Shown piece by piece: positions 293 to 56,558 of a stretch of DNA of 64,000 nucleotides. The first letter of the stretch is position 1; every line of letters starts with the position of its first letter. This stretch comes from Bacilli bacterium. Lineage in GTDB: Bacteria; Bacillota_I; Bacilli_A; RFN20; CAG-826. The stretch covers positions 1-64,000 of the forward strand of contig JAFTDF010000016.1 in the NCBI GenBank assembly GCA_017454295.1, read 5' to 3'. Both the position numbers and the translations under genes were made by a program. The notes under the pieces were generated by a model. The model was not told where the DNA came from. It saw only the letters and a program-made list of their open reading frames with translations, and made no database searches.

Positions 293-342
293 AGAATAGC
301 CGATAAAAAGGTCAAAAGGAAGGGGGCTCCCCTCACTTTTTT
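293..342 (-). promoter_or_regulatory. Promoter block shared with peptide copy 2
   Basis: Read on the minus strand: AAAAAAGT, eight variable bases, CCCCCTTCCTTTT, fifteen variable bases, then TATTCT (293-298). The copy at 54331-54380 has the same blocks at identical spacing, with TATGCT as the last box. I read TTCCTT as the -35 and TATTCT as the -10 with a 17-nt spacer, and the A-tract as a possible UP element. Between this block and the helicase stop (343-398) there is only AT-rich DNA with a TATATTA/TAATATA repeat. Confidence 0.6.
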
Positions 343-50352: not shown

Positions 50353-50607
50353 ATGCCAGCTATCGCAAGTTTCTACGGAATCTTGATCTTGATGCACCTG
50401 ACCCGAAAAGAACACAATCCGCCACACATTCATGCCTATTACGGCGATTACGATGCCTCATTCAGCATCGAAACCGGCGATATCTTGTTTGGAAAATTCC
50501 CACAAAAAGGAACCGCCCTCGTCAAGGAATTCATCCTCAAGTACCGTGCCGACTTACTCGAGATGTGGAACACCGAAATTTACAAGAAACTCCCACCACT
50601 ACAATGA
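50353..50607 (+). CDS. DUF4160 protein (predicted TA component)
   Basis: An 84-residue protein with the DUF4160 pattern: SFYGILILMHL, NPPHIHAYYGDYDASFSIETG and a helical end KYRADLLEMWNTE. DUF4160 genes are usually paired with DUF2442 genes and are suspected to be toxin-antitoxin systems. Here the next gene is exactly that, with a 4-base ATGA overlap. Activity is untested. Confidence 0.82.
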   Translation: MPAIASFYGILILMHLTRKEHNPPHIHAYYGDYDASFSIETGDILFGKFPQKGTALVKEFILKYRADLLEMWNTEIYKKLPPLQ

Positions 50608-51071
50608 CCACCAAACAAGCCATCAAACTGAAAATCAATTCCGGTACGACCATCGATTTATATTATCTCGATGGCGTTGTCATTCGCTTTGACGTCCTTT
50701 CCCTCGTTCCCCGTTACCCCCAATTCCAAGCATTGCAAGATCGCACCCTTTTGGAAAAAGGACATCTGCTAGGATGGAGTAGCGTAATTTGGAACCAAGA
50801 CCTGGATTTAGACGTCGAGCTCGTTTACGAGGAAGGAACGCCCGTATCCGAAGAATATGACGATATCGAAGCGACCGTGATTGGTTTTCTACTCAAACAA
50901 CGACGGTTGGAACTTGGCTATTCCCAAGCGGAAACCGCCAAACTCATCGGCATTGCCCAATCCGATTTGTCCAAAATCGAGAAGGGCCTTGCCAACGTGA
51001 CCATCAAGATGCTTCACCGCATCGCAACCGGCCTTCGTTGCAAAATCAACACGACATTATCCACGCTATGA
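50604..51071 (+). CDS. DUF2442 protein fused to an XRE-type HTH
   Basis: A 155-residue protein. The first 75 residues fit DUF2442 (YYLDGVVIRFDVLSLV...LLGWSSVIWNQDLDLDVELV). The last 65 form a lambda-type HTH (RRLELGYSQAETAKLIGIAQ, SDLSKIEKGLANVTIKML). The start ATG 50604 overlaps the DUF4160 stop. The HTH suggests it is the antitoxin-like, DNA-binding member that represses the pair at the upstream repeat. Confidence 0.82.
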   Translation: MTTKQAIKLKINSGTTIDLYYLDGVVIRFDVLSLVPRYPQFQALQDRTLLEKGHLLGWSSVIWNQDLDLDVELVYEEGTPVSEEYDDIEATVIGFLLKQRRLELGYSQAETAKLIGIAQSDLSKIEKGLANVTIKMLHRIATGLRCKINTTLSTL

Positions 51072-53014: not shown

Positions 53015-54026
53015 ATCCGCCTTTTTCTTTCAGCAATTGCTCGTAAGCCGCTTTTAAGCGTTGCCCCACTTTGGGCAGATCGCGGTCCAAGGCGACTTGG
53101 TACCCCGCTTCCAAGAGGGCGGGATCTTCGCCTTTTTCAAGCAGCGAAGAAAGAGTGGCGGCGAATTCGTCGTTATCTTTGCACATGTGGCAGTTTTTGC
53201 CGTCTTCGAGCCAAGGTTTATAAACCCCGATATCGCGGATGACGAGCGGACAATGGGTGGCCAAAGCCTCCAGAACGACGATGCCTTCGGTCTCTTCATA
53301 AGAAGGGAAAAAGAGGGCGCTGGCTTCGTGGTAGGCTCCTTTAATCAGGTCGCCACTGCAATAGCCGGCCATGATGACATTCTCAGGTTTGCGTTTGATG
53401 GCTTTGAGGATCTTGGTGGAGGTCAAAATCCGCTGCAACGCCCCAAACCAGATGAATTTGGTGTTCGGGAAGCGCCGCGCCACTTCGATGAAATCGATGA
53501 GGCCTTTTCGCTCAAAGGGGAAGCCCACGCCCATGAAGAATTTCTCGTCTTTGGCTAAGCCAAACTTCTTCCGGAACGCGGCAACGGCCTCTTCTTTACG
53601 CTCATAGGCGGGGATATCGATGCCATTGGAGATGGCGATGACGTTTTGGCAATAACCATACCCTTTGATTAAATCGCGGGCGTAAGGCGTAGGCGCGATG
53701 ATCATATCGGCCCGGGAATACATGTATTTGAGTTGACGGTCGAAGGTCGGTTCCATCACTTTCCACAGGCGGAACGAATTTCGGAAATCCTCAAAGGTGG
53801 AATGGCCATGGACGATCACGGGGATCCCCCGCTTCTTACAACGTTGCAATACGCGATGGCTCTTGCCGAAATAGGTATTGATATGGGCGATATCGTAATC
53901 GGCCTTTTTGTCGATGATCGGCTCGATGCCGGCGTCTTTGCAGGCTTGGAGCTGATGGGACATGGCCCGCCCGATACCGCTATGTTTGATGGTATCCGCG
54001 TTTTGGAAGTAAATGAGGGTTTTCAT
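53007..54026 (-). CDS. Glycolipid glycosyltransferase, LafB/BgsA/CpoA-like (GT4)
   Basis: A 339-residue GT-B enzyme very like the second-step diglycosyl-diacylglycerol synthases of Bacilli: KHSGIGRAMSHQLQACKDAG, YDIAHINTYFGKSHRVL, VIVHGHSTFEDFRNSF, and the C-terminal SYEETEGIVVLEALATHCP. It should add a sugar to monoglycosyl-diacylglycerol, giving a membrane glycolipid and lipoteichoic-acid anchor. The first-step enzyme LafA is not here. ATG 54026 follows TATCAT by ten bases and lacks a Shine-Dalgarno. Confidence 0.85.
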   Translation of the reverse strand: MKTLIYFQNADTIKHSGIGRAMSHQLQACKDAGIEPIIDKKADYDIAHINTYFGKSHRVLQRCKKRGIPVIVHGHSTFEDFRNSFRLWKVMEPTFDRQLKYMYSRADMIIAPTPYARDLIKGYGYCQNVIAISNGIDIPAYERKEEAVAAFRKKFGLAKDEKFFMGVGFPFERKGLIDFIEVARRFPNTKFIWFGALQRILTSTKILKAIKRKPENVIMAGYCSGDLIKGAYHEASALFFPSYEETEGIVVLEALATHCPLVIRDIGVYKPWLEDGKNCHMCKDNDEFAATLSSLLEKGEDPALLEAGYQVALDRDLPKVGQRLKAAYEQLLKEKGGSR

Positions 54027-54060
54027 GGCTGAAAAAATGATACCACAAACCCAGCCCACG

Positions 54061-54086
54061 AAAACAAAAACCCCGGTTTCCCGGGG
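54061..54086 (-). terminator. tRNA-Thr terminator
   Basis: Minus strand: CCCCGG-GAAA-CCGGGG followed by TTTTTGTTTT. Confidence 0.92.
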
Positions 54087-54098
54087 GTCTATTCGAAT

Positions 54099-54172
54099 TG
54101 GTGCCCTCACCCTTAGTCGAAAAGAGGTCTGATCCTTACCATGGATCCGTTCTACCGCTGAACTATGAGGGC
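54099..54172 (-). tRNA. tRNA-Thr (anticodon GGU)
   Basis: A 74-nt cloverleaf with all arms: acceptor GCCCTCA/TGAGGGC, D stem GTTC/GAAC with loop AGCGGTA, anticodon stem GATCC/GGATC with loop ATGGTAA (anticodon GGT), T stem CTCTT/AAGGG with loop TTCGACT, discriminator A and encoded CCA. GGU reads ACC and ACU codons. Confidence 0.93.
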
Positions 54173-54217
54173 AGCGGGCTTCCCAAATCCCTACAGTCGG
54201 GGTTTGGCAGCGAGTGG

Positions 54218-54246
54218 ATTATAGGACAACAAAGTTGCGACTGCAA
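54218..54246 (-). promoter_or_regulatory. tRNA-Thr promoter
   Basis: Minus strand: TTGCAG (54241-54246), 17 nt, TATAAT (54218-54223), about 46 bases before the mature 5' end. I see no other feature in 54247-54330 except an AACTTTTT/AAAAAGTT repeat. Confidence 0.8.
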
Positions 54247-54330
54247 TGTTTTCTTTCTTTCTAAGCCCCGCTTCTTCCTTTTCTATGGCTATGAAGCAGG
54301 AGAAAACCATGGGATAAAAAGAAACTTTTT

Positions 54331-54380
54331 AAAAAAGTTGACCCACCCCCCTTCCTTTTCAAAAATGGGTAAGTTATGCT
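54331..54380 (+). promoter_or_regulatory. Promoter block of peptide copy 2
   Basis: AAAAAAGT (54331-54338), eight bases, CCCCCTTCCTTTT (54347-54359), fifteen bases, TATGCT (54375-54380). Same blocks and same spacing as at 293-342 on the other strand. TTCCTT to TATGCT is 17 nt. Confidence 0.6.
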
Positions 54381-54385
54381 GAACC

Positions 54386-54442
54386 CGGATCGGGAAACCG
54401 ATCCACCAGCTATCGCCAAGGAGGACGCTTCATGGTCGATAG
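54386..54442 (+). other. 5' hairpins of the copy 2 transcript, SD and AUG in loop
   Basis: First stem GGATCGG-GAAA-CCGATCC near the predicted 5' end. Second stem CTATCG (54410-54415) with CGATAG (54437-54442); its 21-nt loop holds AAGGAGG and the ATG at 54432. Compared with copy 1 the closing pair is G-C instead of C-G, a compensatory change. TTTGCCGGG (54449-54457), just downstream, is complementary over nine bases to CCCGGCAAA in the 3' hairpin. Confidence 0.5.
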
Positions 54443-54539
54443 AATGGGTTTGCCGGGTCGGAAAGAGGAACTGCGTGATGACCGAGTTGATCTTGGTTCT
54501 CGTGCTTCTTATCCTGCTAGTGCGACAACTTGGACTTAG
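54432..54539 (+). CDS. Leader ORF of peptide copy 2
   Basis: A 35-residue frame beginning MVDRMGLPGRKEEL with the strong Shine-Dalgarno AAGGAGG. LPG at residues 7-9 matches the copy 1 leader (MWIGPSLPG). It runs through the hydrophobic-peptide gene in another phase and stops ten bases before it does. Its likely role is translational coupling or occupancy control, by analogy with mok over hok. Whether the peptide itself matters is unknown. Confidence 0.4.
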   Translation: MVDRMGLPGRKEELRDDRVDLGSRASYPASATTWT

Positions 54540-54549
54540 GGATAAATGA
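54478..54549 (+). CDS. Small hydrophobic peptide, copy 2 (type I toxin-like)
   Basis: A 23-residue peptide: one hydrophobic helix (MTELILVLVLLILLV) and a charged end (RQLGLRDK). It aligns with copy 1 (MLTKLILVFVLFILTV) at most positions of the core. Its ATG is preceded by AAGAGGAA. Its codons lie in a unit with promoter, structured leader and terminator hairpin, and an antisense promoter faces it. All of this is seen only by eye; expression and toxicity are not known. Confidence 0.58.
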   Translation: MTELILVLVLLILLVRQLGLRDK

Positions 54550-54579
54550 AGAAAACCCCTTCCCGGCAAAGGGAGGGGG
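54550..54579. terminator. Shared terminator hairpin of peptide copy 2 and its antisense
   Basis: CCCCTTCCC (54556-54564), loop GGCAAA, GGGAGGGGG (54571-54579). Read on the minus strand it is followed by TTTTCTTCATTT, a good terminator for the antisense RNA. On the plus strand the stem is strong but the following bases are not T-rich. Confidence 0.65.
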
Positions 54580-54597
54580 CCTTCAAAACCTAAGTTC

Positions 54598-54625
54598 ATT
54601 ATAGCACTATAAATGGGCCCGGCAA
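54598..54625 (-). promoter_or_regulatory. Antisense promoter facing peptide copy 2
   Basis: Minus strand: TTGCCG (54620-54625), 16 nt, TATAAT (54598-54603). Transcription should begin near 54591 and stop after the shared hairpin, giving an RNA of roughly 45-50 nt that overlaps the 3' end of the peptide message. No gene follows, since tRNA-Thr has its own promoter, so an antisense regulator is the natural reading. It could instead be a fortuitous site downstream of the lipoprotein gene. Confidence 0.5.
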
Positions 54626-54652
54626 GCCCTCTGGGATCTTCGGTTTTATTCG

Positions 54653-55285
54653 TTACGCATCGATGAAATAAAGACAATAACCCTGCCCGATGTCCGGATT
54701 TTCATACTTCAGCAATAGATAGAGGGTGTTCTCTCCTTGAAACAAACTCGGCTCGAGATGGAAGCGTTCCTCCTTGATTTGCGTGCCATGGCCTCCATTG
54801 ACCTCAGGGAAATAGAAAGCGATGAAGGGTCGGGGGACCCACCATTTCTTCGGCTCGGGTAAGACGGATTTGGGCTGGAGCTGCTTGGCATTTTCAAGAG
54901 CCACCGATTCGGGCAAGGCGAAATAAGAGAAGGAAATGCTCTCATCGGCTTCGGGAAGGGAAATCGCAAAATCACCCGCTCCATAGGAAAGGTGGCGATA
55001 AGTCGCGGGATCGCGGAGCTCGCCATTAGGGTAAAGCGAAGCAGAGACGACGCTATGTATCACATAGGCATCGCAATAAGGCGCCGCTTCCCCGGTTTCG
55101 ACATCCACGATTTCGTAGGTGATTGAGGGTAAGAATTCGATGAAACAATCCTTGCTGCCGTTCAGAGAAAAATCCAAAGGCTCGGCATAAACGGGCCGAT
55201 GGTTGCAGGTGATTTGCTTATGGTTACATCCGCATAGCAAAGCCAAGGAGACCAGAACGAGTCCGTTAACGCGATAATTCGCCAT
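54653..55285 (-). CDS. Putative lipoprotein
   Basis: A protein of about 210 residues starting MANYRVNGLVLVSLALLCGC, a lipoprotein signal with the lipobox LCGC. The mature part is beta-rich (ITYEIVDVETGEAAPYCDAY, FYFPEVNGGHGTQIKEERF). I recognise no family. Its start lies within the last 20 bases of rimO, in another phase; an ATG nine bases earlier is also possible. It ends the malQ-rimO operon. Confidence 0.65.
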   Translation of the reverse strand: MANYRVNGLVLVSLALLCGCNHKQITCNHRPVYAEPLDFSLNGSKDCFIEFLPSITYEIVDVETGEAAPYCDAYVIHSVVSASLYPNGELRDPATYRHLSYGAGDFAISLPEADESISFSYFALPESVALENAKQLQPKSVLPEPKKWWVPRPFIAFYFPEVNGGHGTQIKEERFHLEPSLFQGENTLYLLLKYENPDIGQGYCLYFIDA

Positions 55286-56558
55286 AGAGGTCATACACCA
55301 TCGCGAAGGTGATTTTGACCTTCACAACGTCTCCTTCCTTTAAGGGTTCCTCGCTTTTGAAGAGAATCCGCCCATCGATATCGTCGGGGGCATTCCAATA
55401 GGAACGAAGCAGGTATTCGTTAGGCTTTTTGCCTTTGCCGATGACGAGCCCTTCCATGATTTCCCCAACGTGGGTTTTGTTGTTTTCATAGGAAATGGAG
55501 CGTTGGACTTTCAATAGTTCCTCGGCCCGTTTCTTCTTGGTGGATTCGCGGCATTGATGGGGCAACTTATCGCCAAGCGTCCCTTCTTCGCGGGAATAAG
55601 GGAAGACGCCCATATGGTCGAAGCGGATCTTTTTTAAGAAAGCGATCGTCTTGGCTTGGTCGACCTCATTCTCCCCGGGGAAGCCGGCGATCAGCGTGGT
55701 GCGTAAAATCGCATCGGGGCATTTTTGCTTGATCTTGAGGAAGAGCTCCTCGGTTTCTTTTTGGTCGCTATGGCGGCGCATGGCCTTGAGTTGCTTATTC
55801 GAGGCGCATTGGACGGGAATATCAAAATAATGGGCGATCTGCGTGCTTTTCGCGATTAAATCGATCAGTTCATCGGGAATTTCGCTGGGATAAAGATAGA
55901 GCAAGCGGATCGAATAGAACCCAATCTCTTCCAAACCGCGAAGCAAATCGCAGATATCGGGTTTCTTCCCGGGGAAGTCCTTGCCATAGACCGTGGTGTC
56001 TTGGGAGATCAATGAGATTTCCTTGATGCCCTTTTCCTTCAGGATTCTGGCCTCGGCGAGGATTTCCTCATAAGGACGGCTGCGGAAGCGGCCCCGAATC
56101 AAAGGGATCGCGCAGAAGGCGCAAAAATTATCGCAACCTTCCGAGATGCGTAGATAAGCGCTGTAATCGCCGGTGGATACGACGCGGGCCAAAGGGTTCA
56201 TGGGGGCGATTCCTTGTTCCCCCGTCAGTTCTTCTAACCGAGAGGCAAGTTCCTTATAGTCGCGGATCGGCACGATCAAATCGGCTTCGGGCATGGTGCC
56301 TTTGAGCTCTTCGTAATAACGCTCGGCCAAACACCCCACCACAATCAACTTGCCGGGGTATTTGCTCATCTCGAAGATGGTGTCGATGGATTCGCGCTTG
56401 GCATCGCCGATGAAGCCGCAGGTATTGACAATGATAAAATCGGCCTGTTCGGGCGAGGCGGTGATCACGAAGCGATCCCGGGGGAACATCGCCAACATCA
56501 TCTCGGAATCAACGAGGTTTTTGGCGCATCCTAGCGAAACAAGGCCGATTTTTTTCAT
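55266..56558 (-). CDS. rimO: Ribosomal protein S12 methylthiotransferase
   Basis: A 430-residue radical-SAM enzyme that methylthiolates an Asp of S12. The N-terminal cluster cysteines are in SLGCAKNLVDSE, NTCGFI and VGCLAERY. The radical-SAM motif is CDNFCAFC. A TRAM domain closes the protein. Start ATG 56558 (MKKIGLVSLGCAKN) is two bases after the malQ stop; longer frames overlap malQ. Confidence 0.95.
   Translation of the reverse strand: MKKIGLVSLGCAKNLVDSEMMLAMFPRDRFVITASPEQADFIIVNTCGFIGDAKRESIDTIFEMSKYPGKLIVVGCLAERYYEELKGTMPEADLIVPIRDYKELASRLEELTGEQGIAPMNPLARVVSTGDYSAYLRISEGCDNFCAFCAIPLIRGRFRSRPYEEILAEARILKEKGIKEISLISQDTTVYGKDFPGKKPDICDLLRGLEEIGFYSIRLLYLYPSEIPDELIDLIAKSTQIAHYFDIPVQCASNKQLKAMRRHSDQKETEELFLKIKQKCPDAILRTTLIAGFPGENEVDQAKTIAFLKKIRFDHMGVFPYSREEGTLGDKLPHQCRESTKKKRAEELLKVQRSISYENNKTHVGEIMEGLVIGKGKKPNEYLLRSYWNAPDDIDGRILFKSEEPLKEGDVVKVKITFAMVYDLYGELSR

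Follow-up and report, generated by a model that had tools for sequence, protein, structure and literature searches.

Does the message of a tiny gene in an uncultured bacterium hold itself silent by pairing its 5' end with its 3' end? Such a design, proposed in a preliminary description for one of two copies of this gene, is described for hok and aapA in the portions of the literature cited here (PMC8167048, PMC6733600). We analysed a window made up of bases 1-64000 of an 80.6-kb contig (genome of 1.63 Mb in 47 contigs). Copy 2 had been placed at 54386-54570 on the plus strand; copy 1, for which no position had been given, proved to lie close to the contig start, at about 95-326 of the minus strand. 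The two are related small genes, each predicted to combine a tiny membrane peptide with a hairpin that covers a ribosome site. Our preferred reading, to which we give an even chance of being right, is a type I toxin-like gene that is restricted to one species and present in two copies, the copy 2 mRNA being locked at its ends in the manner of hok and AapA and having a candidate antisense RNA that converges on it.

The paralogy of the two copies was evident from their leaders, which share the arrangement AAGGAGG-N7-ATG-N15-TTGCCGGG; in both, TTGCCGGG starts exactly 15 nt past the leader ATG. This element occurs seven times in the 64-kb window, and four of the seven occurrences lie within the two loci, at 54450 (+), 54562 (-), 54618 (-) and 238 (-), the last being the copy 1 leader element (238-245, -). 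Each copy then has a second A/G-rich Shine-Dalgarno-like stretch, GAGG at 54465-54468 (+) in copy 2, followed by a membrane peptide, MTELILVLVLLILLVRQLGLRDK in copy 2 (54478-54549, +) and MLTKLILVFVLFILTVIEFRQ in copy 1, where it begins at an internal start at 209 within a 39-aa frame (144-263, -). The peptides, of 21 and 23 aa, are single-pass and strongly hydrophobic, as is looked for in the small peptide of a type I system. Across 14 aligned codons the copies differ at 5, 1 and 5 first, second and third positions, and this conservation of the second position is expected if the hydrophobic frame has been kept. The leader frames do not agree: the 35-aa frame of copy 2 (54432-54539, +) overlaps the peptide gene out of frame and the 39-aa frame of copy 1 runs in frame into the peptide, a discrepancy that counts against our preferred reading.

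Upstream of each copy lies a promoter-like block. The pattern CCCCCTTCCTTTT-N15-TATNCT has only two matches in the whole genome, one per copy and with equal spacing, at 54347-54380 (+; TATGCT) in copy 2 and at 293-326 (-) in copy 1, and would be expected to act as the promoter of each. A search for the block elsewhere in the genus returned one foreign match (L038), where no similar gene was seen. The 13-base CCCCCTTCCTTTT block, at its fixed distance from TATNCT, is unlike the usual -35 element and may point to an alternative sigma factor or to a site for an activator.

The preliminary description reported a leader hairpin whose closing pair changes from CTATCC/GGATAG in copy 1 to CTATCG/CGATAG in copy 2, and this was borne out: the letters are exact and the hairpin folds in both copies, although the compensatory evidence amounts to a single event, one pair in two sequences, with the remaining five lower-stem pairs invariant. 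The copy 2 hairpin (54410-54442, +) is the sole CTATCG..CGATAG match in the window (chance expectation 0.11) and encloses AAGGAGG (54418-54424) and the ATG at 54432. The copy 1 hairpin (254-283, -) is likewise the sole CTATCC..GGATAG match (chance expectation 0.05) and encloses AAGGAGG (277-271) and the ATG at 263. In the predicted folds the GGAG core of the Shine-Dalgarno pairs with CUUC in copy 2 and CUCU in copy 1, with local hairpin energies of -14.6 and -11.1 kcal/mol, respectively. Flanking arms that pair perfectly over 6 bp, within 16 nt, were found at 2 of the 20 GGAGG-N5-9-ATG sites in the window, which are these two copies. The hairpin is thus real, and it hides a ribosome-binding site. 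The stability of the copy 2 leader exceeds that of shuffled sequences (z -3.95); the copy 1 leader is not unusually stable (z -0.51, with 63 of 200 shuffles folding equally well). A simple thermometer was rejected, as the pairing of GGAG largely persists at 50 C in the two copies. The hairpin stayed closed in every RNA form that we folded, which speaks against the lock model in that its opening is left unexplained.

As far as search methods reach, the family is a two-copy orphan. The peptide profile, run on 31 genomes from the genus, 279 from the order and 395 sampled within the class, found no relatives outside this genome. All listed foreign profile matches from genus and order (20 of 20) and from the class (11 of 11) were inspected, the latter in wider context for 5 of the 11; most lie inside or across longer frames, and a few are short frames (e.g. 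L051, L122/L131), of which L122/L131 look like YjcZ-type peptides. The AAGGAGG leader was absent upstream of 25 of 25 foreign matches (75 or 300 nt of upstream DNA). A looser AAGGAGG-ATG-TTGCCGGG pattern matched once (L057) among the 278 other genomes of the order, 14 times in a contig collection of 84,980 species and 42 times in viral contigs; two of the 56 matches in the last two sets (L069, L100) lie near a small hydrophobic frame and neither frame resembles the peptide. Profile scans of the species and viral contigs gave 47 and 34 pattern matches with none confirmed, at a threshold that the 23-aa query hardly reaches. With tblastn nothing was found in phages (39-aa frame) or plasmids (23-aa peptide). 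The hairpin pattern had 4 foreign matches across the genus, judged by matched letters only, and a DNA search of 61 genomes gave, among the matches listed, only short ones outside this locus. No known RNA or protein family could be assigned: Rfam returned no family at gathering score in the window and no relevant weak match, Pfam none for the 23-aa peptide and only a SNARE match below cut-off for the copy 1 frame, and NCBIfam and PHROGs none for either peptide. A literature search, screened at listing level, retrieved no description of this locus.

These results bear on a plainer explanation, in which the gene specifies a regulated small membrane protein and no toxin, the paralogues having a special promoter and hairpins for ordinary translational control, and the 3' pairing of copy 2 merely stabilising the RNA. 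The unusual promoter-like block common to both copies, the Shine-Dalgarno hidden in both leaders and the lack of any toxin family match all agree with it, and the 3' region of copy 2 is what tells on the other side, as detailed below. We consider this explanation somewhat unlikely.

The end pairing that our preferred reading invokes was originally seen as a nine-base match within copy 2, which was read as suggesting a long-range hold. The match is exact: TTTGCCGGG (54449-54457) is the reverse complement of CCCGGCAAA (54562-54570). Of 2000 versions of the 185-nt RNA shuffled by dinucleotides, 81 nevertheless contained a perfect complement of at least 9 nt, and 48 still did when a separation of at least 60 nt was demanded; in random 185-mers of the window the counts were 147 of 3000 anywhere and 68 of 3000 at least 60 nt apart. 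The match is exact yet weak alone, since it arises in 2-5% of shuffles or genomic stretches. Its 3' strand had further been assigned to the terminal hairpin of the RNA. An end at 54570 cuts the hairpin in which CCCGGCAAA lies (54556-54579), and by terminator score this hairpin qualifies on the minus strand, where it has an TTTTCTTC tail, and not on the plus strand. With its T tract on the minus strand, it need not end the copy 2 RNA.

Folding a fuller copy 2 RNA, the check that had been proposed for the nine-base helix, turned out against it. In the folds the probability of the helix was near 1 only for RNAs ending at 54570-54574; once the hairpin was complete, with the RNA ending at 54580, it fell to 1e-3, and at 54630 to 7e-20. 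The helix 54449-54457/54562-54570 was thus rejected as the hold in complete RNAs, and the explanation that it is itself the hold, for which the exact complement and the fold of the RNAs ending at 54570 or 54574 speak, is very improbable when set against these values and the frequency of such matches by chance.

A stronger partner for the same leader segment was found past the end of the stretch first described. Positions 54446-54459, which contain TTTGCCGGG and the TTGCCGGG conserved in copy 1, are predicted to pair with 54616-54629 in a helix of 14 bp with 2 G-U pairs (GGGUUUGCCGGGUC/GGCCCGGCAAGCCC). Nested inside it are 54518-54523/54604-54609, 54531-54540/54589-54598 and 54547-54551/54581-54585, whose 3' strands all fall within 54581-54609, and the hairpin 54556-54579; the predicted fold closes over the copy 2 peptide gene. 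The four long-range helices comprise 35 pairs, of which 3 are non-Watson-Crick, all of them G-U on the plus strand. A 7-bp hairpin is also predicted at the 5' terminus (54387-54404, +), absent from copy 1.

The fold of 54386-54630 had an energy of -120.3 kcal/mol (z -8.75), against z -3.74 for the complementary strand. When 100 evenly spaced 245-nt windows were folded as plus strand, with 20 shuffles each, the lowest z belonged to the one starting at 54401 and the second lowest to that starting at 1, over copy 1. Adding 54581-54630 gained -39.4 kcal/mol. Shuffled 50-mers gained -16.0 (sd 2.6, best -25.2, n=300) and random 50-mers from the window -18.9 (sd 4.2, best -30.3, n=296), and none of either (0/300, 0/296) matched the real gain. 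The nested fold of copy 2 is far outside chance, yet it is a prediction for one sequence, as the searches found no relative outside this genome in which the arms of the long-range helix might covary. The idea of a 5'-3' hold in copy 2 thus found support in silico through the 14-bp helix and not through the nine-base pairing for which it was put forward. That the RNA extends to 54629 is an assumption, as no plus-strand terminator was found in 54000-54800.

The effect of the fold on the peptide Shine-Dalgarno was followed through the unpaired probabilities of 54465-54468. These were.45/.05/.02/.15 in the long RNA and.73/.76/.66/.31 with the RNA ending at 54580. The partner of this stretch is 54506-54510 and not the long-range 3' arm. 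Against a simple switch, it was also paired when the RNA ended at 54600, took intermediate values for ends at 54549 and 54612, and the peptide start codon was largely paired in all forms folded. The Shine-Dalgarno is partly freed at 54580, but the values at 54600, 54549 and 54612 do not fit; release of the copy 2 message on processing is therefore plausible in these models, not neat.

The minus strand of the same region carries a candidate antisense promoter, TTGCCG-16-TATAAT, at 54598-54625, with the extended -10 TGCTATAAT. The TGNTATAAT motif occurs once per strand in the 64 kb, and its minus-strand occurrence is convergent to copy 2 and followed by the T-tailed hairpin (54574-54556). A candidate antisense RNA of 54550-54591 (-), starting at about 54591 and ending with this hairpin, would cover the 3' end of the peptide message. 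A convergent layout is usual among Gram-positive type I systems in the account cited (PMC8167048). The same DNA is here both the 3' arm of the lock and the candidate antisense promoter.

The T-tailed hairpin may serve, alternatively or in addition, as the transcript end of a convergent gene at 54653-55294 (-). This gene encodes a 213-aa lipoprotein-like protein, for which Pfam, NCBIfam and PHROGs gave no match and 30 congeners no relative. The 3' inverted repeats might accordingly be no more than the terminator of that gene, or the decayed remains of an inverted duplication that took in part of copy 2, with the pairing to the leader having no role. The T tract of the hairpin (54556-54574) on the minus strand agrees with the former, and by eye the arms, when read on the minus strand, show a likeness to parts of copy 2 and keep their order; we nonetheless regard this as quite unlikely, because the fold is far stronger as plus-strand RNA (z -8.75 vs -3.74), the non-Watson-Crick pairs (3 of 35) are all G-U on that strand, and the 14-bp arm lies beyond what a terminator hairpin needs.

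Copy 1 shares block, hairpin, TTGCCGGG and peptide with copy 2, and a strong 3' hairpin (95-143, -) is predicted for it. Its contig ends 143 nt past the stop, and the partner CCCGGCAA was not found in the 237 nt left before the contig end, in line with the earlier remark that copy 1 has no obvious equivalent of the pairing. No promoter-like antisense site was found in 1-800 by the scan used. The lock is thus predicted for copy 2 alone and not as a family feature. That neither lock nor antisense promoter was found for copy 1 suits an ordinary small protein; in copy 2, by contrast, both the nested fold and the extended -10 that converges on it are far from random and would be unneeded for one.

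Our preferred reading of a locked toxin-like message can be compared with known systems. As in hok/mok/sok of plasmid R1, there is a small membrane peptide, the leader frame of copy 2 overlaps it out of frame, and the 5' and 3' ends of copy 2 are predicted to pair, so that 3' trimming would unlock them. Unlike in hok/mok/sok, a local hairpin conceals the strong Shine-Dalgarno, the candidate antisense is placed at the 3' end and not over the leader frame, and the leader frame of copy 1 is in frame. No sequence relation was found, whether as a Hok peptide or as an Rfam RNA. Pairing of the hok type is strongly predicted for copy 2 and absent from copy 1, and the analogy with hok may serve as a hypothesis of mechanism for copy 2; as family membership it fails.

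The likeness to aapA/IsoA of H. pylori lies in a long mRNA locked 5'-3' and a shorter active form; for aapA3, the passages cited describe two forms, a full-length RNA in which a long-distance interaction between 5' and 3' ends imposes the lock and an active RNA that is 35 nt shorter (PMC6733600). In that account the 3' element of aapA is an anti-Shine-Dalgarno, whereas the 3' arm of copy 2 pairs upstream of the peptide Shine-Dalgarno, whose own partner is a different segment. For IsoA3 a duplex of 80 bp is given (PMC6733600), against about 40 nt for the candidate here. Fst/RNAII, txpA/ratA and bsrG/SR4 share with the layout proposed for this locus convergent toxin and antitoxin RNAs that overlap at their 3' ends, as far as described in the sources cited (PMC8167048, PMC4147584), which for Fst also report a terminator shared by both RNAs (PMC8167048, PMC4147584). 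The hairpin at 54556-54579, unlike such a bidirectional terminator, carries a T tract on just one strand, the minus. The peptides also differ from that group, with no similarity in Pfam, NCBIfam or PHROGs, and no Fst-family match in Pfam or NCBIfam. Unlike in the Fst/RNAII group, the repeated element is here inverted, and pairing between the candidate antisense and the leader would therefore not be expected.

On our preferred reading, each copy would be transcribed from its own promoter-like block and carry a hairpin hiding the strong Shine-Dalgarno and leader start ahead of a 21-23 aa membrane peptide, presumably toxic. The copy 2 mRNA would fold back, 54446-54459 with 54616-54629, closing the nested fold with the peptide Shine-Dalgarno paired within. 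Trimming of the 3' end back to the hairpin 54556-54579 would remove the lock and partly expose this Shine-Dalgarno, and the antitoxin would be a convergent RNA that starts from the perfect extended -10 and covers the 3' part of the message. A further proposal, that a hok/AapA-like lock evolved independently in a convergent type I locus and that one 3' segment is both RNA lock and DNA promoter of the antitoxin, we judge unlikely as a whole; were the dual use true, lock and antitoxin would be made of the same bases. Should both the fold and the antisense RNA prove real, the locking of toxin messages end to end (hok in E. coli, aapA in H. pylori) would have arisen again in an unrelated peptide family, and the copies with and without the 3' arm would be a natural test of the contribution of the lock.

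Elsewhere in the window, at 50353-51071 (+), a gene for a DUF4160 protein is followed by one whose product has a helix-turn-helix domain and matches DUF2442 below cut-off, a small two-gene pair that we presume may be toxin-antitoxin-like.
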